A stretch of DNA of 64,000 nt from Roseospira marina (lineage in GTDB: Bacteria; Pseudomonadota; Alphaproteobacteria; Rhodospirillales; Rhodospirillaceae). The translations under genes were made by a program, and so were the position numbers. Of the stretch, positions 9,729 to 62,175 are shown piece after piece (the stretch's first letter is position 1; every line of letters starts with the position of its first letter). A model generated the notes under the pieces. That model had not been told where the DNA came from, searched no databases, and was given only the letters and a program-made list of their open reading frames with translations. The stretch lies in the NCBI RefSeq assembly GCF_014197855.1, contig NZ_JACIGJ010000002.1:248001-312000 (forward strand), written 5' to 3'.

Positions 9729-10661
9729 TCAGTACCCCGCATGGCGGTCAACCTGGTGAGCGAGGGGCTCGCCCCGCTCCAGTCGACGGATGGTGTCGGC
9801 AATCTGATCGCAGGTGGGCTCCACCTTGGTCACGGCCGCGATATGCGGGGTCAGGCGAACCCGGGGATGCCTCCAGAAGGGATGGTCGTTCGGCAACGGC
9901 TCCGGTTCGAACACGTCCAGTTGCGCCCCGCGCAGATGCCCCGCGTCCAGCAGGGCCAGAAGGTCGGCGTCCACAATGTGCGCGCCGCGGGCGGCGTTGA
10001 TGACGGCCGCACCGGCCGGCAGGCGCCGGAGCGTCTCCGCATTGAGAAGACCCCGCGTCTCGTCGGTCAGCGGCACCAGGCAGACCAGGATTTCGGTCTC
10101 CGCCAGGAACGGCGCGAGACCGTCGGTGCCGTGGAAGGTCTCGACGCCCGGCACGGTCTTGGGGCGCCGGCTCCAGCCGCGCACCGCGTAGCCCAGGGAC
10201 ACCAGGACACGTGCCACCGCGCCGCCCAGGACGCCCAGGCCCATCAGGCCGACCGTGGTCCGGGGCGCTGGTCTCACCGGCAAGCGGGTCCAACGGCCGG
10301 CCGCCTGCTCGCGCGCATAGTCATCGAAGCGGCGCTGAAAATGCAGCACCCCGTGCAGGACCCACTCCACCATTTGCGGCGCCATGCCCGCATCGGCCAG
10401 TCGCACCACCGGCACACTGGCCGGCACGGCATCACGGGCCGCCAGAATGGCATCGACCCCCGCCCCCAGATTGAACACCGCCCGGAGGTTCGGCAGCGAC
10501 GCCAGCAGTCCCGGCGGGGGCGACCAGACGAGCGCGTACTGGATCGCGTCGGCGGGGCCGACGTCGGGATGGATGCGAAACCCAAGATCGGGCAACCGTG
10601 CAGCCATAGCCTGCCGATAGTCATCGGCGCGATCCACAGCGCTTGCAAACAGGATGGTCAT
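9729..10661 (-). CDS. ghrA: Glyoxylate/hydroxypyruvate reductase A
   Basis: NAD(P)H-dependent D-2-hydroxyacid dehydrogenase that reduces glyoxylate to glycolate and hydroxypyruvate to glycerate. The 310-residue protein has the nucleotide motif GLMGLGVLGG, the catalytic Arg in INAARGAHIVD, Glu in DVFEPEPLP and His in LTPHIAAVTK, all in the GhrA arrangement. The start MTILFASAVDRAD at 10661 follows the family; the longer frame adds 37 residues with no similarity. Glyoxylate is also the substrate of the bhc cluster at 32-36.5 kb, so this enzyme could compete with or buffer that pathway. Confidence 0.9.
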   Translation of the reverse strand: MTILFASAVDRADDYRQAMAARLPDLGFRIHPDVGPADAIQYALVWSPPPGLLASLPNLRAVFNLGAGVDAILAARDAVPASVPVVRLADAGMAPQMVEWVLHGVLHFQRRFDDYAREQAAGRWTRLPVRPAPRTTVGLMGLGVLGGAVARVLVSLGYAVRGWSRRPKTVPGVETFHGTDGLAPFLAETEILVCLVPLTDETRGLLNAETLRRLPAGAAVINAARGAHIVDADLLALLDAGHLRGAQLDVFEPEPLPNDHPFWRHPRVRLTPHIAAVTKVEPTCDQIADTIRRLERGEPLAHQVDRHAGY

Positions 10662-10783
10662 TGTTGGCTCTTTATGATCGACACCCAGCGGGCTGGACCG
10701 CATCCCTCTGCCCACCGTCGTACTTAAGACCATAGCAAACACAACCGGGGGCGAGGTGCGCATCCCGCGCAAGGGTCGGTCGT

Positions 10784-10875: not shown

Positions 10876-12783
10876 TCAGAGCCGCTTGATCGGAATATCG
10901 TGGCGCCGGAGAGCATAGCCGACCTGACGCGGGGTCAGCCCCAAAAGCCGGGCAGCCTTCGCCTGCACCCAGCCGGACTTTTCCATCGCGGCGACCAGAC
11001 GGTCACGCTCCGGCAGGCGACCGGACACCCCGCCACCGTCGCCATGCCGGGCGTCCATCGCGCCCACACCGCCCGCGGCGGCATCATCCGACGCGGGCGA
11101 CGCCGACGGGGTCGCCGGGGGAGCCATCGGAGGCGGCGTCGCGGGTGGCGTGCCCAACGGCGCGCCGGCTCCGTTCGGCGACCGGCCCGCGCCCATCATC
11201 ACGTCGTCGGACAGCGGCATCGGCCGCCCCCCTCCGGAGGCACAGGACCCGCAGTTCGACACGCCGGTCGGGGCTCCAAGTCCCCCGATGGCCTGTGTCG
11301 GCCCGTCGATTTCGCGCCCCAGCGTGGCCGACAGACACCCGACTTCCCGACACGAGAAGTCCTGGGCGCTGATCACCTCGCCCCGCACCATCGTGGCGAC
11401 GCGGGTCACGCAGTTCTCCAGCTCCCGCACGTTCCCCGGGAAGGCACAGGCGCTCAACAGCGCGATCGCGTCGTCCGAAAAGCCGAGGCTATCGCCATTT
11501 TCCTCGTTGAACCGCTCCAGGAAATGCCGCGCCAGGGGTTCGATGTCCTCGGGCCGCTCGCGCAGGGGCGGCAGCACCAGCGTGACCACGTTAATGCGGT
11601 AGTACAGGTCGGCGCGGAATTCACCGCGCGAGACCGCTTCTTCCAGGTTGCGGTTGGTCGCGGCGATGATGCGCACATCGACACTGCGGGTCTTGGACGA
11701 GCCAAGGCGCTCAAACTGCCCCTCCTGCAGCACCCGCAGCAGCTTCGCCTGGAAGGTCGGGGAGATCTCCCCGATCTCGTCCAGAAACAGAGTCCCGCCG
11801 TCCGCGGCCTCGAACCGGCCTTTCCGTTCGCCGCTGGCGCCGGTGAACGCCCCCTTGTCGTGGCCGAACAGTTCCGATTCCAGCAGGGTATCGGGCAGCG
11901 CGGCGCAATTGACGCCAACGAACGCCTTGTCCGCGCGCGGGCTGACCTTGTGCAGGGCGCGCGCAATCATCTCCTTGCCGGTGCCGCTCTCACCCCGGAG
12001 CATCACAGGCGCCCGGGTTCGCGCCACCTGCCGCACCTTGTCGAGCACGGCCACCATGGCCGGTCCCCGGCCGACGATCTCGCCGAAGCGGGGACCGCGC
12101 TCCTGCTGGCTGCGTCCGGCGCGTTCCGCCCGCGCACGCTTCTCCAGCCGCGCCGCATCGGCCAGCAGGGTGCGCCGATCCGCCGCCACCAGCCGGTGCA
12201 GACGCACCGTCTGGCCAACGAGGTTGGCCACCATGGTCAGGAACCGAAGATCATCGTCGAGCGTGGTATCCAGGGGCCCGTCGCGCCAGCGCTCCACCGA
12301 GAGGGTCCCGAGCGCCGACTCACCAGCGCGGATCGGCACGCACACGAACGCCACCTTGTCGCTTTCCAGCACGCCACCGTGTTCCAGATAGGCCGTGAAA
12401 CGCGAGTCCTCCCACATGTTCCCGACCAGGACACGCATGCCCGTGCGGTGGACCCGCGTGGCAACGTCGAGCGGATAGGCGCCCCGTCCTTCTCGGGCCC
12501 GTTCCAGCGACAGGCCGATGCTGGCGACGAGAGACAGGTCGGACGACTCCGCCGACGCCAGGGCAATCGTTCCCCGGCGCATGTCGAGGTAGGCCCCCAG
12601 CACGTTCAAGACATCGTGCAGGGTTGCCTCGAGATTGAGAGCCCCCGATAGGATCTTGCTAATCTCGTAAAGCGTTAGAAGAGAACGGGCGCCCCCTCCC
12701 GGTCCCTCGGCTTCCATCCGGATGGGCTGGGCATGGGTGGCGGTCGAAGACGACGATACGGCAGCGGCTGTGGGCACGACCAT
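10876..12783 (-). CDS. nifA: Nif-specific sigma-54-dependent activator NifA
   Basis: Master activator of nitrogen-fixation genes, working with sigma-54. The 635 residues contain a GAF domain (about 43-200), an AAA+ domain with Walker A GESGTGKE (264-271), the sigma-54 contact loop GAFTGA (311-316) and LFLDEIGE, and a C-terminal Fis-type helix-turn-helix (596-635, [21 protein letters not shown]). The cysteines C446, C458, C478 and C483 fit C-X11-C-X19-C-X4-C, the motif of the oxygen-sensitive NifA class of alphaproteobacteria. A long Pro/Ala/Gly-rich interdomain linker follows, with an extra NCGSC pair (511, 514). No nif structural gene is adjacent. The ATG at 12783 was taken; a GTG four codons upstream is possible. 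Confidence 0.95.
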
Positions 12784-12862
12784 GGGCGGTACCACGTAGG
12801 CTTGAGTTGGGGCAGCATGTATTGCGATGCAGCATTATCGCGCGTCACTGCCTTGAAATCAA

Positions 12863-31581: not shown

Positions 31582-31803
31582 ATGGCCGAAATCATCAACC
31601 TTCGTCAGGCCCGCAAGCAGCGCGGCCGCGCCGACAAGGCCCAAACCGCCGCCGACAACCGCGCGCGCCACGGCCGCACCAAGGGTGAGCGGGAGCGGGA
31701 CTCCACCACCCGGTCGAAAGCGGAGCGCGACCTGGACGCGCATCGCCTGGACGGCCCGGATCGGACGGATGATCCGCCCGATGAGCCCCCGCCGTCGGCC
31801 TGA
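31582..31803 (+). CDS. DUF4169 family protein
   Basis: A 73-residue, very basic and polar protein starting MAEIINLRQARKQRGRADK, with NRARHGRTKGERERD and DAHRLDG in the order seen in DUF4169 proteins, a family confined largely to alphaproteobacteria. Probably one long charged helix plus an acidic proline-rich tail. No function is known for the family. It stands between divergent hisN and the bhc operon. Confidence 0.8.
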   Translation: MAEIINLRQARKQRGRADKAQTAADNRARHGRTKGERERDSTTRSKAERDLDAHRLDGPDRTDDPPDEPPPSA

Positions 31804-32034: not shown

Positions 32035-33231
32035 ATGTCGAACCCCAACCCCATCTTCATTCCGGGGCCCACCAACATCCCGGAGCGGCTGCGGCGCGCC
32101 ATGGACGTCGCATCGCGGGATCATCGCGCGCCGGACTTCGTCGATCTGATCCGGCCGGTGTTCGAAAACCTGAAACCCGTCTTCGGCACCTCAGCGGGTC
32201 AGGTCGTGCTGTTCCCGGCCACAGGCACAGGCGGCTGGGAAGCCGCCATCACCAACACCCTGTCACCGGGCGACACGGTTCTGGCCGCGCGTCATGGCAT
32301 GTTCTCCCAACGCTGGATCGACCTGTGCCGGCGTCACGGCCTGGACATGCGCGTGTTCGAAGCACCGTGGGGCGAAGGGGTGCCCGTCGAGGCGTTCGCC
32401 AAGGCGCTGGCCGCCGATACGGACCACCGCATCAAGGCCGTGCTGGCGACCCACAACGAAACCGCCACCGGCGTGCGCAGCGACATCGCGGCCGTCCGGC
32501 AGGCCCTGACCGTCGCCGACCACCCGGCCCTGCTGTGCGTGGACGGGGTCAGTTCCATCGGGTCCCTCGACTTCCGCATGGACGAGTGGGGCGTGGATCT
32601 GGCCGTCGCCGGCTCCCAGAAGGGATTCATGCTGCCGGCCGGGCTCGCCATCGTCGGGGTCAGCCCCAAGGCCCGCGCCGCCATGGAGACGGCCACCTGC
32701 CCGCGCGCCTTTTTCGACATGCGGGACATGATGGCCGCCAACGCCGCCGGCAGCTTCCCCTACACGCCGTCCGTACCGCTGTTGTGCGGCCTGCGGGAGT
32801 CGCTGGCGATGCTGGCGGAGGAAGGACGCGAGGCGGTCCACGCCCGCCATCACCGCATCGCGGAGGGCGTGCGCCGCGCCGTCGCCGCCTGGGGGCTGTC
32901 GCTGTGCGCCCGACGCCCGGCGCTGTACTCCGACACCGTCACGGCCATTCTGGTGCCGGACGGATACGACGCCGGTGCGCTGGTTGCGCATGCGTACACC
33001 CGCTATGGCGTCCCTTTCGGCATCGGCCTGGGCGACGTCGCCGGGACCGTATTCCGCATCGGCCACCTGGGGCAGATGACGGACGTGATGGCGCTGTCCG
33101 GCCTTGCCACCGCCGAAATGGCGATGGTGGATCTGGGCTATCCGATCACTCTCGGCTCCGGCGTCGCGGCCGCGCAGGCGTATTATCGCGAAACTGCTGC
33201 GCACGCCGTCCCGGCGGCGGCTGCGGCCTGA
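32035..33231 (+). CDS. bhcA: Aspartate--glyoxylate aminotransferase BhcA
   Basis: First enzyme of the beta-hydroxyaspartate cycle: transaminates glyoxylate to glycine with aspartate as donor. The 398-residue class-V aminotransferase begins IFIPGPTNIPERL, has LFPATGTGGWEAA for phosphate binding, LCVDGVSSIGSLD for the pyridine Asp, and the PLP Lys in VAGSQKGFMLP (K196). Such sequence would otherwise be called serine--glyoxylate or alanine--glyoxylate transaminase; the following bhcB, bhcC and bhcD make BhcA the specific call. AGGAGG lies 8 bases before the ATG at 32035, fixing the start. Confidence 0.92.
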   Translation: MSNPNPIFIPGPTNIPERLRRAMDVASRDHRAPDFVDLIRPVFENLKPVFGTSAGQVVLFPATGTGGWEAAITNTLSPGDTVLAARHGMFSQRWIDLCRRHGLDMRVFEAPWGEGVPVEAFAKALAADTDHRIKAVLATHNETATGVRSDIAAVRQALTVADHPALLCVDGVSSIGSLDFRMDEWGVDLAVAGSQKGFMLPAGLAIVGVSPKARAAMETATCPRAFFDMRDMMAANAAGSFPYTPSVPLLCGLRESLAMLAEEGREAVHARHHRIAEGVRRAVAAWGLSLCARRPALYSDTVTAILVPDGYDAGALVAHAYTRYGVPFGIGLGDVAGTVFRIGHLGQMTDVMALSGLATAEMAMVDLGYPITLGSGVAAAQAYYRETAAHAVPAAAAA

Positions 33232-33290
33232 CCAGTCGCGCACCCGCCCAGTGTCCCAAATCCCAAAGCCGTCCCACAAAGGCCACTCCC

Positions 33291-34262
33291 ATGCATATGA
33301 GCGATCCGCAGGTTCCCCCGACCTACGATGACGTCCTGGCCGCGCACGCGCGCATCCAGCCGTACATTCACCGCACCCCCATCCTGACCTGCGCCACGCT
33401 GGACCGGATGAGCGGCGCCGAACTGCTGTTCAAGTGCGAAAACTTCCAAAAGGGGGGTGCCTTCAAGGCACGCGGCGCCACCAACGCCGTGTTCAGCCTC
33501 GACGACGCGACCGCCGCCAAGGGCGTCGCCACCCATTCGTCGGGCAACCACGGCACGGCACTCGCCTACGCCGCCGGGCGGCGCGGCATCCCGTGCGAGG
33601 TCGTCATGCCCCGCACCTCGCCGCAAGCCAAGAAGGACGCGGTGCGGGGCTACGGCGCCACGGTCATCGAGTGCGAGCCCTCCACCTCGTCGCGGGAGGC
33701 CGTGTTCGCCGAGGTCGTGGCCCGCTCCGGCGCGGATTTCGTCCACCCGTTCAACGATGCGCGGGTGATCGCCGGACAGGCCACCTGCGCCAAGGAACTG
33801 TTCGAGGACGCCGGCCCCCTCGACGCCGTGATCGCGCCCATCGGCGGCGGCGGGCTCGTCTCGGGCTCCTGCCTGACGCTGTCCACCCTGTCGCCGACCA
33901 CGCGCATCTACGCCGCCGAGCCGGCGAACGCCGACGACGCCCACCGGTCGCTGAAGGCCGGGCACATCATCACCGACGACGCGCCCCAGACCATCGCGGA
34001 CGGCCTGAAGGTCTCCATGAAAGAGCTGACGTGGCACTTCGTCTCCCGCCACGTCGCCGACATCCTGCTCGTCAGCGAGGAGGAGATCGTCGCCGCTATG
34101 ATGCTGATCTGGAAGCGCATGAAGATCGTCATGGAGCCCTCCTCCGCCGTGCCGCTGGCGGCGGTGCTGAAGAACCACGACCTGTTCGCCGGCCAGCGCG
34201 TGGGCGTCCTGATCACCGGCGGCAACGTCGATCTGGACCGGCTGCCCTGGACGTCCGCCTGA
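33291..34262 (+). CDS. bhcB: beta-hydroxyaspartate dehydratase BhcB
   Basis: PLP enzyme of the serine/threonine dehydratase fold (323 residues) that dehydrates erythro-beta-hydroxyaspartate to iminosuccinate. The PLP Lys is in GGAFKARGATNAVF (K59), followed by SSGNHGTALAYAA and the phosphate loop PIGGGGLVSG. Without context it would be annotated threonine dehydratase or serine racemase; the bhcA and bhcC neighbours decide. A second ATG two codons in is possible. Gap to bhcA 59 bases, to bhcC 24. Confidence 0.92.
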   Translation: MHMSDPQVPPTYDDVLAAHARIQPYIHRTPILTCATLDRMSGAELLFKCENFQKGGAFKARGATNAVFSLDDATAAKGVATHSSGNHGTALAYAAGRRGIPCEVVMPRTSPQAKKDAVRGYGATVIECEPSTSSREAVFAEVVARSGADFVHPFNDARVIAGQATCAKELFEDAGPLDAVIAPIGGGGLVSGSCLTLSTLSPTTRIYAAEPANADDAHRSLKAGHIITDDAPQTIADGLKVSMKELTWHFVSRHVADILLVSEEEIVAAMMLIWKRMKIVMEPSSAVPLAAVLKNHDLFAGQRVGVLITGGNVDLDRLPWTSA

Positions 34263-34286
34263 GACCGCTTCACACGGAGACCCGCC

Positions 34287-35441
34287 ATGAACGCCATCAC
34301 CCGCTCCACCGCGCCGGTCGTCGGCCTGACCGTCCCCGCCGCCGTCGGCATGTCGATCGACGAGATCGGCACCCCGGCCCTCATCGTCGATCTGGATGCG
34401 TTCGAGAAGAACGTGAAGACGATGAAGGAGTTCATTGAATCCAAGGGGTTGCGGCTGCGCGCCCACGCCAAGACCCACAAGTCCGCCGACATCGCCCTCT
34501 ATCAGATCGCACAGGGCGGCGCCTGCGGCGTGTGCTGCCAGAAGGTGGCCGAGGCCGAGGCGCTCGTGGACGGCGGCGTCACCGACGTTCTGGTGTCCAA
34601 CCAGGTGGTCGACCCGAAGAAGATCGACCGCATGGCCGCCATGGCCAAGAAGGCCCGCGTGCTGTGCTGCGTGGACGACGCCGGCAACATCGACGACCTG
34701 TCCGCCGCCGCCACGCGACACGGTGTGACGCTGGAATGCCTTGTGGAGGTGGACGTGGGCGCCGGTCGCTGCGGCGTCGGCCCCGGAGCCCCCGTGGTCG
34801 CGCTGGCGAAGCAGATCGACGCGGCCCCAGGGCTGACCTTCGCTGGCCTTCAGGCCTACCAGGGCGCCGCCCAGCACGTGCATGACTTTGCGGAGCGCAA
34901 GGCCCAGATCGAGGCCGCCATCGCCATGGTCCAGGACACCGTGGACCAGTTGAAGGCCGAGGGGCTGGACTGCGCGATCGTCGGCGGCGCCGGCACGGGC
35001 ACCTACTACTTCGAGGGCGCGTCCGGCCTGTATAACGAGCTTCAGTGCGGCTCCTACGTCTTCATGGACGCCGATTACCAGCGCGTGCTCGACCCGTCTG
35101 GACAGGTGATCTCGGAGTTCGAGAACAGCCTATTCATCCTGACGTCCATCATGTCGCACGCAAAGGCGGACAAGGCCATCTGCGACGCCGGCCTGAAGGC
35201 GCAAAGCGTGGACAGCGGCCTGCCGGTGATCTTCGGCCGCGACGACGTCGAGTACATCAAGTGCTCCGACGAACATGGTGTGATCGCCGATCCGAAGGGT
35301 GTGCTGGCGCTCAACGAGAAGCTGAAGCTGATTCCCGGGCACTGCGATCCCACCTGCAACGTCTACGACTGGTACGTCGCCGTGCGCGGCGGCCGGGTGG
35401 AGGCGGTGTGGCCCGTCACGGCACGGGGCCTGGCACTTTAA
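34287..35441 (+). CDS. bhcC: beta-hydroxyaspartate aldolase BhcC
   Basis: Condenses glycine with a second glyoxylate to (2R,3S)-beta-hydroxyaspartate, the carbon-carbon bond-forming step. The 384-residue protein is of the D-threonine aldolase / alanine racemase-like fold: TPALIVDLDAFEKNV, the PLP Lys in RAHAKTHKSADIA (K62), EVDVGAGRCGVGPG, and the C-terminal metal site motif PGHCDPTCNVYDWYV with the His-X-Asp arrangement. A CGGAGA ribosome site precedes the ATG. Order and spacing match the known bhcABCD operon. Confidence 0.92.
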   Translation: MNAITRSTAPVVGLTVPAAVGMSIDEIGTPALIVDLDAFEKNVKTMKEFIESKGLRLRAHAKTHKSADIALYQIAQGGACGVCCQKVAEAEALVDGGVTDVLVSNQVVDPKKIDRMAAMAKKARVLCCVDDAGNIDDLSAAATRHGVTLECLVEVDVGAGRCGVGPGAPVVALAKQIDAAPGLTFAGLQAYQGAAQHVHDFAERKAQIEAAIAMVQDTVDQLKAEGLDCAIVGGAGTGTYYFEGASGLYNELQCGSYVFMDADYQRVLDPSGQVISEFENSLFILTSIMSHAKADKAICDAGLKAQSVDSGLPVIFGRDDVEYIKCSDEHGVIADPKGVLALNEKLKLIPGHCDPTCNVYDWYVAVRGGRVEAVWPVTARGLAL

Positions 35442-35536
35442 TCGCCCGCCCCTCGCCCGGATCAGGGGTGCCCCCGGCCCGCATACAGCGCGGCGCACCC
35501 CGCCCTGTTCCCTCCCCCGTGTCAGGACCCGCCGCC

Positions 35537-36502
35537 ATGTACATCGTTCCCGAATCCCTGGCCCGCGATCTTGTCTCGCAGGAGGCCGCGACCGAGGCCA
35601 TCGAAACGGTGTTCGCCGCCATGGCGCGGGAGGAGGCCCGCAATTTCCCCGTGGTGCGGGAAACCCTGGGCCACGCCGACGCGGTCTATGGCTTCAAGTC
35701 CGGTTTCGACCGCGCCGGCAAGGTGCTTGGACTGAAGTCCGGCGGCTACTGGCCGGGCAACGCCGACCGGGGCCTGACCAACCACCAGTCCACAAACGTC
35801 CTGTTCGATCCCGACACCGGCCGCCCCTACGCCCTGGTCGGCGGCAACCACCTGACCGCCGTGCGCACGGCCGCCGCCAGCGCGGTCTCGATCCGGCATC
35901 TGGCACGGCCCGATGCCCGCGTTCTGGGGCTGATCGGCGCGGGGCATCAGTCCGGCTTTCAGCTCAAGGCTGCCGCCGCGCAACGCCGGTTCGAGAAGGT
36001 GCTGTGCTGGAACATCGACCCCGACCTTCTGTCCACACCGGCCAAGGCCGCCGAAGACATCGGCCTGCCGTTCGAGGCGGTGGACCGCGATATGCTGGGG
36101 GCCGAGGCGGATGTGATCCTCACCATCACCTCGTGCTTCGAGCCCCTGCTGATGAAGCACCAAGTCAAGCCGGGAACGCACATCGCCTGCATGGGCACGG
36201 ACACGATCGGCAAGCAGGAGGTCGACCCCGCCCTGGTCGCCGCCGCGACCGTGTTCACCGACGAGGTCGCCCAGGCCACCGTGCTGGGCGAGTGTCAGCA
36301 CGCCTTTGCCGCCGGTCTGCTAGCGGCGGAGGCCATCACGCCGCTCGGGCGGGTGATCACCGGCGCGCACCCGGGGCGCACAGACATCGACGAGATCACG
36401 CTGTTCGACGGCACCGGCGTCGGACTTCAGGATCTGGCGGTGGCGGACGTCGCTGTGCGCCTCGCCGTAGCCCAGGGCGCGACCCTGACCGTGGACATGT
36501 AG
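35537..36502 (+). CDS. bhcD: Iminosuccinate reductase BhcD
   Basis: NAD(H)-dependent reduction of iminosuccinate to L-aspartate, which regenerates the amino donor for BhcA. The 321-residue ornithine-cyclodeaminase/mu-crystallin-fold protein has the substrate Lys in LGLKSGGYWPGN, the arginine in HLTAVRTAAASAV, the nucleotide motif IGAGHQSGFQ (133-142) and FTDEVAQAT. By itself it would read ornithine cyclodeaminase; with bhcABC it completes the cycle. A 95-base gap separates it from bhcC. Confidence 0.92.
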   Translation: MYIVPESLARDLVSQEAATEAIETVFAAMAREEARNFPVVRETLGHADAVYGFKSGFDRAGKVLGLKSGGYWPGNADRGLTNHQSTNVLFDPDTGRPYALVGGNHLTAVRTAAASAVSIRHLARPDARVLGLIGAGHQSGFQLKAAAAQRRFEKVLCWNIDPDLLSTPAKAAEDIGLPFEAVDRDMLGAEADVILTITSCFEPLLMKHQVKPGTHIACMGTDTIGKQEVDPALVAAATVFTDEVAQATVLGECQHAFAAGLLAAEAITPLGRVITGAHPGRTDIDEITLFDGTGVGLQDLAVADVAVRLAVAQGATLTVDM

Positions 36503-36561: not shown

Positions 36562-37785
36562 ATGCTCAACCCTGCCCTCGATGCCCTGCCGGACAGCCCG
36601 TTCACCCGCATGAACGCGCTCATCGCCGACGTGACTCCACCCGCCGATCCGCCGCCGCTGCTGATGTCCGTGGGGGAGCCGCAGAACGCCTATCCGGCCT
36701 GGGTGGCGGAGACCCTGGCCGAGAACGCGCACCTGTGGGGCAAGTACGTCAATCCGCGCGGCACGGACGCGCTCAATGCCGCGATGATCGGCTGGCTGGA
36801 ACGGCGGTTCGGGCTGCCGGCCGGCGTGATCCGCCCCGGAGAATCCATCGCGCCGCTGGCCGGCACGCGCGAGGGGCTGTACCTGCTGCCGGAGGTCGTC
36901 ACCCCCCGCCGGGCGGAGGGCACCAACCGGCCGCCCGCCGTTCTGATCCCGAACCCGTTCTACCACACCTATGCCGGGGCGGCCCTGACGGCCGGCGCCG
37001 AGCCGGTGTTCCTGCCCACGACGCGGGAGACCGGATATCTGCCCGATCTGGACGCCGTGGATCCGGAGCTGTGGGCACGGACGTCGCTGTTCTACCTGTG
37101 CTCCCCGTCCAACCCGGCGGGCTCCGTGGCCGATGTGGACTACCTGAAACGTGCGGTGACGCTGGCCCGAACGCACGATTTCTGTCTGGTCGTCGATGAG
37201 TGCTACGCCGAGCTGTACTACGGCGCCCCGCCACCCACCGCGCTTCAGGCGGCGCTGGCGCTCGACGGCACGCTGGACAACGTTGTGGTGTTCCATTCGC
37301 TGTCGAAGCGCTCCAGCCTCGCGGGCCTGCGCGCCGGGTTCTGCGCCGGGGATCCCCGCATCCTGAAGCCGTTCCTGAAGCTGCGCGATTACGGCGCGGT
37401 GTTCATCCCCCTGCCCTCCCAGGCCGCCGCCGCGCGCCTGTGGGCCGACGACGACCATGTGGCGGCCAACCGCGCCTACTACCGCCGCAACTTCGCAATC
37501 GCGGAGCAGTATCTGGGTGACCATCCGGGGTTCGCCTGGCCGGAGGCCGGGTTCTTCCTGTGGCTGGAGGTCGGCACGGAGGCGGCGGAGCCGTTGGCAA
37601 AACGCCTGTGGGCGGAGGCCGGAGTGAAGGTCGTGCCCGGCGCCTACTTCGGACGCGCGGATGCCCACGGCGTTAATCCCGGGGCACCCTATCTGCGGCT
37701 GGCGATGGTGCACGACGCGGCCACCACCGAGGCTGCAATGCGCCGGATCCGCCCGCTGTTGTGCGGCGGCGGGGACGCGCGCTAG
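36562..37785 (+). CDS. dapC: Succinyldiaminopimelate transaminase (DapC-like)
   Basis: Class I/II PLP aminotransferase of 407 residues: substrate segment SVGEPQNAYPAWV, ALTAGAEPVFLP, CSPSNPAGSV, the PLP Lys in HSLSKRSSLAGLRAGF (K249) and the DapC-type C-terminus FFLWLEVG. It fits N-succinyldiaminopimelate aminotransferase of lysine and peptidoglycan synthesis. It follows bhcD in the same direction after 59 bases, so it may be read through from the bhc promoter; whether that is meaningful for aspartate use is open. Its start overlaps no upstream frame. Confidence 0.88.
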   Translation: MLNPALDALPDSPFTRMNALIADVTPPADPPPLLMSVGEPQNAYPAWVAETLAENAHLWGKYVNPRGTDALNAAMIGWLERRFGLPAGVIRPGESIAPLAGTREGLYLLPEVVTPRRAEGTNRPPAVLIPNPFYHTYAGAALTAGAEPVFLPTTRETGYLPDLDAVDPELWARTSLFYLCSPSNPAGSVADVDYLKRAVTLARTHDFCLVVDECYAELYYGAPPPTALQAALALDGTLDNVVVFHSLSKRSSLAGLRAGFCAGDPRILKPFLKLRDYGAVFIPLPSQAAAARLWADDDHVAANRAYYRRNFAIAEQYLGDHPGFAWPEAGFFLWLEVGTEAAEPLAKRLWAEAGVKVVPGAYFGRADAHGVNPGAPYLRLAMVHDAATTEAAMRRIRPLLCGGGDAR

Positions 37786-58389: not shown

Positions 58390-61300
58390 TCAGAGGTTTC
58401 CGGGGCAGCGGAACGCCTTCAGCTCCCGCAGGTTGAACGGGTTCGTGACACTGCCCGCGCGGATTTCGAAGATCGCGGACAGGCCCCCGGTGCTGAACTG
58501 GATCCGGAAGCGGTCGCCGGTGCCGCCGTCCAGGCGTCGGCCCTGGTCCAGCAGCCGGAAGAACGCCCAGGGTCCGGAAAAGCCGGAGATCGACGGCAGA
58601 CCCGGCCCGGTGCTCTGGAACGACACCCGTGTCTGCGTTCCGGGTCCGGGCCACGACAGCCGCGCCGGCAGGACCGGCCCATGCGCATAGCTCACCTGCT
58701 GGCCGTCGATTTCCATCACCACGCTGTTGGCGTCGGCGTCCAGGGAAACGGGCGTCACCTCGAACGGCACATTGAGCTGGCTGCCCCCGGTCGGGAAGAA
58801 GGCGTCCCGGATGACGGCCGCCCGTTCGAACTGCGCCAGCGTCGCGCGCGACAGCCCCAAGTCGATCCCGTTGTGGCGGCGGCTCGTCCAGGGCCGGCGC
58901 CCCATGTCGACATAGGGCATGAGATTCTGCCGGAAGAAGGAGTCGATCAGTCCGTTGGGCGCGAACAACCGCACGAAATCGGCCATGGCGACGTCGCTGC
59001 CGCTGCCCGAAGCGAACGGATAGCGGTTGTTCAGCGCCTGCCGACAGAGCGGCAAGACGTCGGCGGACCAGACCGTTTCCAGGCCCTGCTGGGTGCTGCT
59101 GACCGCGATGGACTGCCCGCCGCTCGCGATGTGCTCCAGCCAGCCGCTGAGCGGCGCGGGCACCTGCGTCGCTTGAGTGCCCAGCCGCCGGACCGCGTCC
59201 ACGCTGCCGCCCCCGCCCCCGCCGCCGATGACAGCCGACAGACCGCCGCCGCTGTCGGCCACGCGGCGGAGTTCGTTGTAGGCCTGCCCAAGCTGGCGGA
59301 TCAGGTCCTCCAGCGGCGGCGTGCTGCCGTCCTGGGCCAGAACATAGGCGTGAAGCTGCTGGAAGCGATCGTTGACGTACTGGCCGGGCAAGGCCCGCTC
59401 GCTGGCCGCGCCACCGCTGGAACGGCGGCTGCCGCTGCCGCCCACGAAGCTTGAATCCGAGAAAATGCCCGCGAGCCGCTCGACCACCGATATTCCGCCC
59501 GTGCCGAGCCCGAGCGTCTGCCCGACGTTGCGGGCCTCGCTGGCGGCGCCCTCGACCGCCTCCGCCCGGGCGCCGACGTCGCCGCCGGATCCCAGCCCGG
59601 CGATCGCGGCGCCGATGCCGCCGTCCTCCTCCGGCCGCGCCAGACGGGTTTGCTGGGCCACCTCGTTCAGGACGTTCCGCAGCGGCGAGTTGGCCCCAGA
59701 CAGCAGGGCCAAGACGTCGGTGGCGTCGTTGGCGGTGTCGAAGGGCCGCAACTCCACGTCCGCCAGCAGGCCATCCCACTGCGCGACATAGTCGTCCATG
59801 TAGAGCGCCGCCAGATCCCGCTCCAGCAGCCGGATCTGCGCATCGTCAAGCGTGGCGCTCTCCCCCAGCACCCAGCTTTCGGACGCCACCCGCTGGGCCA
59901 CCTGCACCAGCGACGGCAGGAACACCTCATGGAAGCCGGTGTAGGTGTAGAAGCCGTCGACACCATCGTCGAGGTCCGCGCCAGAGCGCCGCACGAACAC
60001 GCGGCGGGCCGCCGGACCAGCGGCGTCGATCACCCGCCATTTCGGCAGTGCCTTGGCCGCTTGGCTGTTCTTGATCAGCGCATAGGCCCGCTCCGCCAGG
60101 GGCTGCTGCCTCAGGATATCCCGCACGCGCTCCACAAGCGGGCCGTCGATCGGCATGGTGCGCAAAACCCCATCAGTCAGCGCCACCACATGCGCGGCGA
60201 CCTCCTGGCGCAGAGGTTCGTTCCGCGGCCCGGGATAGCGTTCACCGAGATCGAAATCCACCCAATTGCGCAACGGCGTCGCGCTGACGGGCCCCTGTCC
60301 CCCGACCATCAGGTACAGCTTGAGCAGGCCATAAAGGCGTTCGGTCTCCCGGGTCTCGGTCAACGACTCCCGCAAACGAAAGGTCAGGCGTGGCAGAAGC
60401 AGACCGTTCAGCGCCTCGGTGTAGGCGGATTGCGCCTGCTGGCCCAGCTTGTCGCCCTGGTACAGCCCGAACCCGGCCCCGGTCGGCGTCGGCGCATCCC
60501 GCTCCGCATACCCGAGCGGTAGGTCGCGCAGCGTCGCCAGCGGGGGCAGCACAGGCCGCACGTCGGCCGAATCCACCAGAACGGTCTCGCCGTCGCCCGG
60601 CACGATGTCCGCCACCTGGGTTCGGTAGGTCGCGATACCTGCCTCGGTGCGGGCGATCAGGTCGCGATTGACCAACGTGCTCCAGGTCCACAGACCGATC
60701 CCGGTGAGCAGCAGGACCGACGCCAGGGCGATGGCCCCGCCCCGAACCAGCCGTTGCCGGCGCTCGACGGCCCGGTTGCGGCCCACCATGCCCGCTTCCT
60801 TGAACAGCACCTCCCGCAGCAGCCGCGTCAGGAAGAAACTGCGCCCCTGGCCCCGATAGGCCCCGAAGCGCGCCGGCGGCACTCCGAACCGGCCCGCCAG
60901 CCCCGCCATGACGCGGTCGATCGGCGTGCCTTCCTGCGTGCCGCTGGTGAAGTAGACGCCGCGCAGCAGGATCGGCTCCTCATAGCGCCCAGCGCGGAAC
61001 GCCTCCTCCAGCACCTGCATGACCGGATCGCGCAGCGCCGCGACCTGAAGCGGAAAGCCGGTGATGAGGCCGGCGCGGGCGAAATCGTCCTCCTGGTGCA
61101 GGCGGTCGAGCCGGCCCTGCTCCAGCCGCTCCAGCAGCAGGTCGAACTCCTCCGGGAACAGATCCAGCGGGTCGGTATCGTCGCCCTTCTTCAGGTCGAG
61201 GAACGGGTAGGTCATGCCCCAGACCTGCGCCCTATCGTCCCGGCGCATGTCGCCGAAGAACTCCATGAAGCCGGCGACGAGATCGGCCTTTGTCAGCATC

Positions 61301-62088
61301 ACATAGACCGGCGGCCGCAGGCCGAGCCGGTCATACAGCTCCGCGATGCGCTTGCGGATGGCCAGCGCATGGGCGCGGCGCTCCGGCTCCGACGCCGTCA
61401 TGATGTCGGAAATGCTGATGGCCACGATCAGGCCGTTAACCGGCTGACGCGGCCGCGCCTTGCGCAGGATATCGAGGAAGCCCTCCCACGCCGCCGCGTC
61501 CATGGTGGCGTCGGAGTCCTGGGTCGTGTAGCGCCCGGCGGTGTCGAGCAGGACCGCCTCGTCCGTAAACCACCAGTCGCAATTGCGCGTGCCGCCCGCC
61601 CCGGACACCTTGGCCTGCTGCGGATCGTTGCCCAGCGGGAAGCCGAGGCCGGAGTTCAGCAGCGCCGTCGTCTTGCCGCTGCCCGGCGGCCCGATGATCA
61701 TGTACCAGGGCAGTTCGTACAGGTACTGGCGGCCGCTCTTGCCATCCTTGCGCCGCATGCGCTGCAACTCACCGAGTGCACGCTCCAGCCCCTTGCGCAG
61801 GGCCTCCACCTCGGGGCCGGCGGCGCCGCCGGCCGCCGCGTTGCGGGTCACGCCATCGACCAGTTCGGTCTGACGCTTGCGGCGACGGAGCAGGCCCCAC
61901 ACCACGAAGCCGGCCCAGATAACGAGAAACACCAGGGCGACCAGCAGGCGGGCCGCGATACCCTCCAGCGGGCGGCTGTCGCCGAACCCGATCAGCGGCC
62001 CGAGGAACCACACCAGCAGGATCAGGAACAGGGTCCCGATCAGTCCAATGAACCAGCCGCTCTTGAGGATGGAGACGATCTTGCTCAC
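58390..62088 (-). CDS. tssM: Type VI secretion membrane complex subunit TssM (IcmF)
   Basis: Large inner-membrane scaffold joining TssL to the outer-membrane TssJ. At about 1232 residues it has two N-terminal helices (12-31, 45-67), a cytoplasmic NTPase-like domain with Walker A GPPGSGKT (133-140) and DTAGRY, a third membrane helix (about 430) and a long periplasmic domain with the DUF1215-type region and GSGSRRSSGGAAS linker. A TTG 11 codons upstream is an alternative to the GTG start at 62088. Lies between tssL and tagF. Confidence 0.93.
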   Translation of the reverse strand: MSKIVSILKSGWFIGLIGTLFLILLVWFLGPLIGFGDSRPLEGIAARLLVALVFLVIWAGFVVWGLLRRRKRQTELVDGVTRNAAAGGAAGPEVEALRKGLERALGELQRMRRKDGKSGRQYLYELPWYMIIGPPGSGKTTALLNSGLGFPLGNDPQQAKVSGAGGTRNCDWWFTDEAVLLDTAGRYTTQDSDATMDAAAWEGFLDILRKARPRQPVNGLIVAISISDIMTASEPERRAHALAIRKRIAELYDRLGLRPPVYVMLTKADLVAGFMEFFGDMRRDDRAQVWGMTYPFLDLKKGDDTDPLDLFPEEFDLLLERLEQGRLDRLHQEDDFARAGLITGFPLQVAALRDPVMQVLEEAFRAGRYEEPILLRGVYFTSGTQEGTPIDRVMAGLAGRFGVPPARFGAYRGQGRSFFLTRLLREVLFKEAGMVGRNRAVERRQRLVRGGAIALASVLLLTGIGLWTWSTLVNRDLIARTEAGIATYRTQVADIVPGDGETVLVDSADVRPVLPPLATLRDLPLGYAERDAPTPTGAGFGLYQGDKLGQQAQSAYTEALNGLLLPRLTFRLRESLTETRETERLYGLLKLYLMVGGQGPVSATPLRNWVDFDLGERYPGPRNEPLRQEVAAHVVALTDGVLRTMPIDGPLVERVRDILRQQPLAERAYALIKNSQAAKALPKWRVIDAAGPAARRVFVRRSGADLDDGVDGFYTYTGFHEVFLPSLVQVAQRVASESWVLGESATLDDAQIRLLERDLAALYMDDYVAQWDGLLADVELRPFDTANDATDVLALLSGANSPLRNVLNEVAQQTRLARPEEDGGIGAAIAGLGSGGDVGARAEAVEGAASEARNVGQTLGLGTGGISVVERLAGIFSDSSFVGGSGSRRSSGGAASERALPGQYVNDRFQQLHAYVLAQDGSTPPLEDLIRQLGQAYNELRRVADSGGGLSAVIGGGGGGGSVDAVRRLGTQATQVPAPLSGWLEHIASGGQSIAVSSTQQGLETVWSADVLPLCRQALNNRYPFASGSGSDVAMADFVRLFAPNGLIDSFFRQNLMPYVDMGRRPWTSRRHNGIDLGLSRATLAQFERAAVIRDAFFPTGGSQLNVPFEVTPVSLDADANSVVMEIDGQQVSYAHGPVLPARLSWPGPGTQTRVSFQSTGPGLPSISGFSGPWAFFRLLDQGRRLDGGTGDRFRIQFSTGGLSAIFEIRAGSVTNPFNLRELKAFRCPGNL

Positions 62089-62175
62089 GGTCAGCGTCCG
62101 TTCTGAAGGGGGGTCGCCCAAAAGCGCACCTGGTCCAAGGGGGGCGGTGTCTGGGGCGCGGCGCCCAAGGTCAAA

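Follow-up and report, generated by a model that had tools for sequence, protein, structure and literature searches.

The stretch analysed here, 64,000 nucleotides of the Roseospira marina genome and hereafter called the window, carries at positions 32035–36502 four genes that had been predicted to form a complete operon for the β-hydroxyaspartate cycle (bhcABCD). All four genes are intact, adjacent and on the plus strand, in the order bhcA, bhcB, bhcC and bhcD, successive genes being separated by 65, 24 and 95 bp; a second in-frame ATG for bhcB is found at 33291. The scores listed below are followed by the NCBIfam equivalog cut-offs, which we used as identity thresholds.

32035–33231, + strand: bhcA, L-aspartate--glyoxylate aminotransferase (NF045640, 699.9 bits; cut-off 650)
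33297–34262, + strand: bhcB, β-hydroxyaspartate dehydratase (NF045641, 603.8 bits; cut-off 550)
34287–35441, + strand: bhcC, 3-hydroxy-D-aspartate aldolase (NF045642, 636.7 bits; cut-off 690, not reached; best solved relative 6QKB)
35537–36502, + strand: bhcD, iminosuccinate reductase (NF045643, 549 bits; cut-off 500; best solved relative 6RQA)

Identity of the four proteins

BhcA, BhcB and BhcD each score above their equivalog cut-off, and the runner-up NCBIfam families for BhcA, BhcB, BhcC and BhcD reach 177.6, 361.6, 21.1 and 186.4 bits, respectively, that of BhcC being alanine racemase, its sole other match. Among solved structures, BhcC is closest to the D-3-hydroxyaspartate aldolase 6QKB (504.9 bits, a 138-bit lead over the next at 367.2) and BhcD to the iminosuccinate reductase 6RQA (414.2 bits; next 139.1), while 6pk1, a serine-glyoxylate aminotransferase, is the best solved match of BhcA and 6lut, a probable serine racemase, that of BhcB. 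When BhcB is aligned with its Paracoccus counterpart, both display the stretches SSGNHG and GAFKARG, which we take to be the substrate-binding and pyridoxal phosphate (PLP)-lysine motifs. The original prediction of a complete set in the Paracoccus order thus agrees with three equivalog scores and with the gene order, and the alignment it proposed gives identities of 68, 75, 62 and 66% between BhcA–D of the window and those of a Paracoccus sp. (locus L178).

The score of BhcC was compared with those of nine C proteins encoded beside other bhc genes and of one encoded without them (L032). Five of the nine also miss 690 bits (L029, 662.1; L030, 652.5; L031, 665.4; L042, 577.2; L044, 584.2), so that falling short of it does not mark a C protein as standing outside a bhc cluster; the C proteins of L041, L043, L178 and L179 reach it, and the lone C of L032, at 626.9 bits, does not. 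Of the four predicted assignments, that of BhcC is the least secure.

Phylogenetic trees, the other check that had been proposed, place three of the proteins clearly. In the BhcA tree, the 13 rows from bhc clusters form one clade (support 100/100) apart from 19 other homologues; three ordinary dehydratases from genus members fall outside BhcB (100/100); and BhcD groups only with BhcD proteins of bhc clusters (92/96), its position inside that clade being left open. The expected separation from ordinary homologues therefore holds for BhcB and BhcD but is less clear for BhcC, which does not fall with the Paracoccus type. Several BhcA-like aminotransferases of the same order (L140–L146, 58–62% identity), with no B, C or D within the stretch examined, were set aside as candidates for BhcA since they fall just outside the bhc-cluster clade.

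It is extremely improbable that ordinary dehydratase, aldolase, aminotransferase and cyclodeaminase genes lie side by side here by accident. Every one of the four proteins does belong to a broad superfamily, but this reading is contradicted by the three equivalog scores, by the trees with ordinary homologues outside, and by the exact canonical order. On predicted gene content and arrangement, the presence of a complete bhcABCD operon is confirmed, far beyond chance. The G+C content at third codon positions of the four genes (0.87–0.94) is similar to that of neighbouring genes, and a foreign origin on the grounds of composition was rejected, the composition being unremarkable. A scan for regulatory sites returned no promoter-like sites and five terminator-like sites against 2.4 expected, all on the opposite strand. 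We infer from sequence the activities of the enzymes, the direction of the reactions, the source of glyoxylate and the co-transcription of the four genes.

A variable locus and the descent of its genes

The operon lies between two further genes.

31582–31803, + strand: small DUF4169 protein (PF13770, 72.1 bits), upstream flank; a conserved marker outside the pathway
36562–37785, + strand: dapC-like succinyldiaminopimelate transaminase (TIGR03538, 396 bits, below the cut-off of 474.6), downstream flank

We compared this locus among six genomes of the genus, the window's own and G001–G005; what is said of bhcB in the sister species applies to the loci read, not genome-wide. The best matches of the dapC-like protein in the genus are those of G004 (91%), G002 (83%), G005 (73%) and G001 (71%). 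Between the DUF4169 and dapC genes lie bhcABCD in the window, bhcB and bhcC in G004 (L022), bhcB alone in G002 (L026) and nothing in G001 (L028), so that the DUF4169 gene of the sister species is followed by B-C-dapC, B-dapC or dapC. G003 is without a dapC orthologue (best match 33%), and the G005 contig breaks off at this locus. The B protein of G004 scores 570.7 bits, and those of G002 and G001 (543.8 and 527.8 bits) fall just under the cut-off.

These partial B and C sets show no decay. They have open frames and ratios of nonsynonymous to synonymous substitution (dN/dS) of 0.21–0.40, measured against the window genes or each other, which is higher than for dapC and mgtE (own against G004, 0.09) and similar to the neighbouring gene hisN (0.22). 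The stretches of B and C that presumably hold the PLP-lysine and the metal site are preserved. A tblastn search with D (E up to 10) gave no hit in the interval of roughly 400 bp that separates C from dapC in G004. Of the six genus genomes, only the window's has a BhcD above its cut-off, and BhcA finds no match at 1e-100 in G001–G004. From the history of A, described below, and its absence from these four sisters, we lean towards a gain of A and D in the window lineage rather than their loss in the others.

The BhcA of the window joins two Ectothiorhodospiraceae rows (95/93), and its placement with L029 or with three clusters of its own order was rejected (p 0.0007 each in the approximately unbiased test, p-AU). 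The BhcC of the window, in contrast, groups with the C proteins of G004 and G001 and with seven C proteins marked as having neither A nor D (97/95), and its grouping with Ectothiorhodospiraceae was rejected (p 0.0015). Because the bhcA and bhcC trees disagree, the operon looks mosaic, with A and C of apparently different histories. B and D do not decide the matter. In the BhcB tree (22 rows), the window protein and those of G004, G001 and G002 form a genus clade inside BhcB (97/97), and a grouping of the window with Ectothiorhodospiraceae without the sister species has p 0.037; in the best tree, however, this clade adjoins the Ectothiorhodospiraceae rows, as in A, albeit weakly (64/69), which counts against a mosaic. 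So does BhcD, for which a grouping with L042 was not rejected (p 0.54). Simple vertical descent of B and C, with the window and G004 as sisters, has a p-AU of 0.018 in the B tree and of 0.238 in the C tree. All of these p-AU values are weakened by the fact that the tested groups were named after the trees had been seen.

The C tree used 50 of 112 C hits; duplicate loci were excluded, as were hits that scored below 100 bits, covered less than 70% of the query or contained internal stops. L135 was removed from the D set for one topology test. Rows labelled FULL in the trees include L030 (A split in two; only part of D matched before its contig stops), L044 (contig ends before any D) and L175 (contig starts after any A).

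The company kept by BhcC bears on another reading, in which B and C work together to break down external 3-hydroxyaspartate, with A and D in accessory roles. B and C occur without A and D in G004, in G001 and in a gammaproteobacterial metagenome-assembled genome (L040, within the 15 kb examined), where ABC-transporter genes lie near the pair, and many of the loci examined hold C without A, B and D, the window C being grouped with such proteins. The four genes of the window are nevertheless adjacent, co-directional and in canonical order, with A and D above their cut-offs, and we regard a purely catabolic pair as very unlikely here.

Two further arrangements of C were noted. Methylobacterium homologues of BhcC (72–75% identity; L033, L035–L038 and L097) have directly downstream a cyclodeaminase-family gene (37–41% to BhcD), and neither A nor B was matched above 90 bits; the aldolase is possibly used differently there. 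In G073 (L174:7618–8550), the gene of a BhcC homologue (73%) overlaps a homocysteine S-methyltransferase-family gene.

Glyoxylate supply, regulation and a possible link to Rubisco

The four-step chemistry is as characterised elsewhere (excerpts of PMC8307300, PMC11323563 and PMC8166194). In the window genome, BhcA would transaminate glyoxylate with aspartate as the amino donor, yielding glycine and oxaloacetate; BhcC would join glycine to a second glyoxylate to form β-hydroxyaspartate, which BhcB would dehydrate to iminosuccinate; and BhcD would reduce iminosuccinate to aspartate, closing the cycle. The net result would be the conversion of two glyoxylate into one oxaloacetate without loss of CO2. 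Glyoxylate would stem mainly from glycolate via GlcDEF, with malyl-CoA chemistry and Rubisco-derived phosphoglycolate as possible smaller inputs. The genome has a glcD-E-F-like cluster on another contig (C11; L172:4873–9186), in which GlcE (302.9 bits; cut-off 284) and GlcF (443.1; 333) pass their thresholds and GlcD (511.1) remains below 567.9. With bhcABCD and these genes present, a path from glycolate to oxaloacetate appears to be encoded. Glyoxylate carboligase above cut-off is found in none of the six genus genomes, which makes the glycerate route unlikely. We consider it very probable that the window genes encode a working β-hydroxyaspartate cycle fed mainly by glycolate.

Several observations weigh against this reading. 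BhcC misses its equivalog cut-off, and in the tree its companions are C proteins with no A and D close by, not those of the Paracoccus type. A malate synthase domain, present in two of the six genus genomes (own and G004), provides a further sink for glyoxylate. There is no bhcR at the window locus, and the nearest BhcR homologue, which is the sole BhcR-like regulator found in the genome (contig C11, 41% identity, 307.5 bits against a cut-off of 350), is divergent from a malyl-CoA-lyase-like gene. BhcR is needed in Paracoccus (excerpts of PMC11323563), and with no bhcR at the locus, the predicted regulation differs from that system. BhcR-like IclR genes occur in the own, G004, G001 and G005 genomes; as a link to bhc they were dropped, the own, G004 and G001 copies lying below the BhcR cut-off and divergent from malyl-CoA-lyase-like genes.

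This same pairing in the own, G004 and G001 genomes favours the idea that the cycle mainly handles glyoxylate released by malyl-CoA lyase in the ethylmalonyl-CoA pathway during growth on acetate, not glycolate; the G004 lyase-like protein indeed finds its best solved matches in the malyl-CoA lyases 5UGR and 4L9Y. Malyl-CoA lyase can, however, use up glyoxylate as well as produce it, and glcDEF-like genes are present. We judge this source quite unlikely to be the main one.

Use of two-carbon compounds had also been argued from the supposed position of the operon beside nitrogen-fixation control genes. That argument is not supported: NifA (10876–12795, minus strand; 670.5 bits, cut-off 528.85) is genuine, but 19 kb with unrelated genes separate it from bhcA. 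A scan of 30 proteins encoded around the bhc operon in the window named no second nif gene, and the label of diazotroph, with NifA as its basis, is tentative. Adjoining nifA at 9729–10772 (minus strand) is a gene for a GhrA-like glyoxylate/hydroxypyruvate reductase (301.7 bits; cut-off 403). Elsewhere in the window, an RlaP-family protein (PF10127; 25411–26241, minus strand) is encoded between thiolase and acyl-CoA dehydrogenase genes, and a type VI secretion TssM (1190.7 bits) at 58390–62121 (minus strand).

The host appears to be a photosynthetic CO2 fixer. Reaction-centre genes (PF00124) are present in five of the six genus genomes, including the window's, the sixth being 88% complete, and Rubisco large-subunit genes in all six. 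The own Rubisco gene is grouped with genes for a CbbR-like protein (402.9 bits, below the cut-off of 450), fructose-bisphosphatase, phosphoribulokinase, CbbX and ribulose-phosphate epimerase.

In G001, a bhcBC pair lies beside Rubisco. The order on contig C25 (L207, L023) is malyl-CoA-lyase-like gene (−), BhcR-like IclR gene (+), gene for a VWA protein (−), CbbQ (−), cbbL (−), CbbR-like gene (+; 245.6 bits, also under 450), bhcB (+) and bhcC (+), followed by phage-like genes. The ATG of bhcB lies 51 bp past the CbbR-like stop, and bhcB and bhcC overlap by ATGA. Among the 42 loci compared, only this one has a Rubisco gene beside bhc genes. In G002 (L191), cbbL and the CbbR-like gene are 97.9 and 88% identical to the G001 copies; no B hit was found in this Rubisco stretch and no bhcC in the genome. 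As the B of G001 is sister to that of G002 (97/91), the evidence suggests that the G001 pair has moved. The phage tail-like genes 3′ of the pair (baseplate J, tail sheath; L023:10887–17111) are possibly tied to this move, and the same contig carries a TssF gene (L207:6552–8621).

Even in the absence of A and D, the B and C enzymes could convert glycine and glyoxylate to oxaloacetate by a short linear route; iminosuccinate is labile (excerpts of PMC8166194), and BC pairs could therefore yield oxaloacetate by hydrolysis. In the open PubMed Central literature, no report was found of bhc genes beside cbbR or in a Rubisco-bearing photosynthetic purple host, and the bhc–Rubisco linkage of G001 and the BC-only forms may be new.

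These findings raise the question of whether the cycle, and its BC short form in the sister species, mainly serves as a natural phosphoglycolate salvage, in which Rubisco oxygenation yields phosphoglycolate that passes through glycolate and glyoxylate to oxaloacetate. In favour are the Rubisco genes of all six genomes, the own copy with its Calvin-cycle neighbours and together with bhc in one genome, the absence of a carboligase over cut-off in the genus, and the G001 pair directly 3′ of a CbbR-like gene beside cbbL and CbbQ, a linkage that hints at salvage. Against it, purple bacteria often fix CO2 anaerobically, when little phosphoglycolate is formed. The G001 adjacency, moreover, is seen in one genome, is followed by phage-like genes and may be chance; bhc and Rubisco of the window genome lie on separate contigs (C2 and C1); and Rubisco occurs without bhcC in G002 and G003, two of the five genus genomes at least 90% complete, as well as in the 88% complete G005. 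Malate synthase has also been proposed for phosphoglycolate salvage in some Rhodospirillales (excerpts of PMC7486775), and the own and G004 genomes have the domain. Salvage as the main role is possible but somewhat unlikely.

A broader picture for the genus is rather unlikely and is offered as a conjecture. The bhc route would serve the genus as a natural, carbon-conserving phosphoglycolate salvage, with a BC module as its minimal form that would make oxaloacetate by the linear route and is tied in G001 to CbbR and Rubisco; in the window lineage, bhcD and an Ectothiorhodospiraceae-like bhcA would have been added around the resident BC to give a full, nitrogen-recycling cycle, and the series from none through B and BC to ABCD would survive at one locus.

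Distribution and comparison with known systems

Among 248 genomes of the order, BhcA scores above its cut-off in four, the window's own, G104, G247 and G161, and the last three have complete ABCD clusters at the loci read. G148 shows B-C-D at a contig start. BhcC passes its cut-off in five genomes, the own not among them, and within its family the window's genome is the sole one of the 248 with BhcA over the cut-off. Besides the three annotated reference clusters described below, the A-B-C-D order, with all four genes present, holds at eight loci (L029, L031, L041, L042, L043, L137, L138 and L139).

In itself, the operon is an ordinary find: a well-supported further example of an established pathway, whose host is informative and whose sister species show variants. 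A 2021 review found the cycle in some proteobacteria with a Calvin cycle and remarked that its occurrence in purple non-sulfur bacteria 'needs additional investigation' (excerpts of PMC8307300), a question that the window genome addresses at the level of predicted genes. Since Paracoccus itself fixes CO2 (excerpts of PMC11323563), the co-occurrence of bhc and Rubisco is not new. The genus, in which a single locus ranges from full through BC and B-only to empty and a BC pair also adjoins Rubisco in one genome, would make the salvage link and a stepwise build-up or loss testable in living relatives.

The gene order of the window is that of the annotated Paracoccus (L178), Rhizobium (L179) and Limimaricola (L180) clusters. 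The pathway has been characterised in P. denitrificans, and Paracoccus sp. L178 (NZ_CP034813.1) has the same order and orientation with enzymes 62–75% identical to those of the window; the window differs in having no adjoining bhcR, a C of another lineage, a photosynthetic host, and gaps between genes that abut or overlap in L178. Rhizobium sophoriradicis (L179, NZ_CP104153.1) has the same four genes in the same order, but there bhcR and glcD-, glcE- and glcF-type genes adjoin bhcA. In Limimaricola, as in the window, no bhcR is annotated beside bhcA, and an adjoining bhcR is thus usual but not essential. The ABCD clusters of G104, G247 and G161 are 65–67% (A), 68–76% (B), 65–67% (C) and 65–67% (D) identical to the window's; in them, a bhcR homologue adjoins bhcA and C passes its cut-off, neither of which holds for the window, whose BhcA groups with Ectothiorhodospiraceae and not with theirs.

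Kornberg and Morris reportedly described a β-hydroxyaspartate pathway in 1963. The BC pairs of the sister species would suffice for its conversion of glycine and glyoxylate to oxaloacetate and ammonia, whereas the window has the full cycle, including A and D. A synthetic counterpart exists in Arabidopsis, where the β-hydroxyaspartate cycle was engineered as a carbon-saving photorespiratory bypass (excerpts of PMC8166194). Both there and in the window's host, the four enzymes are set in a photosynthetic cell that has Rubisco; the plant cycle is engineered and peroxisomal, whereas that of the window is natural and its link to photorespiration putative.

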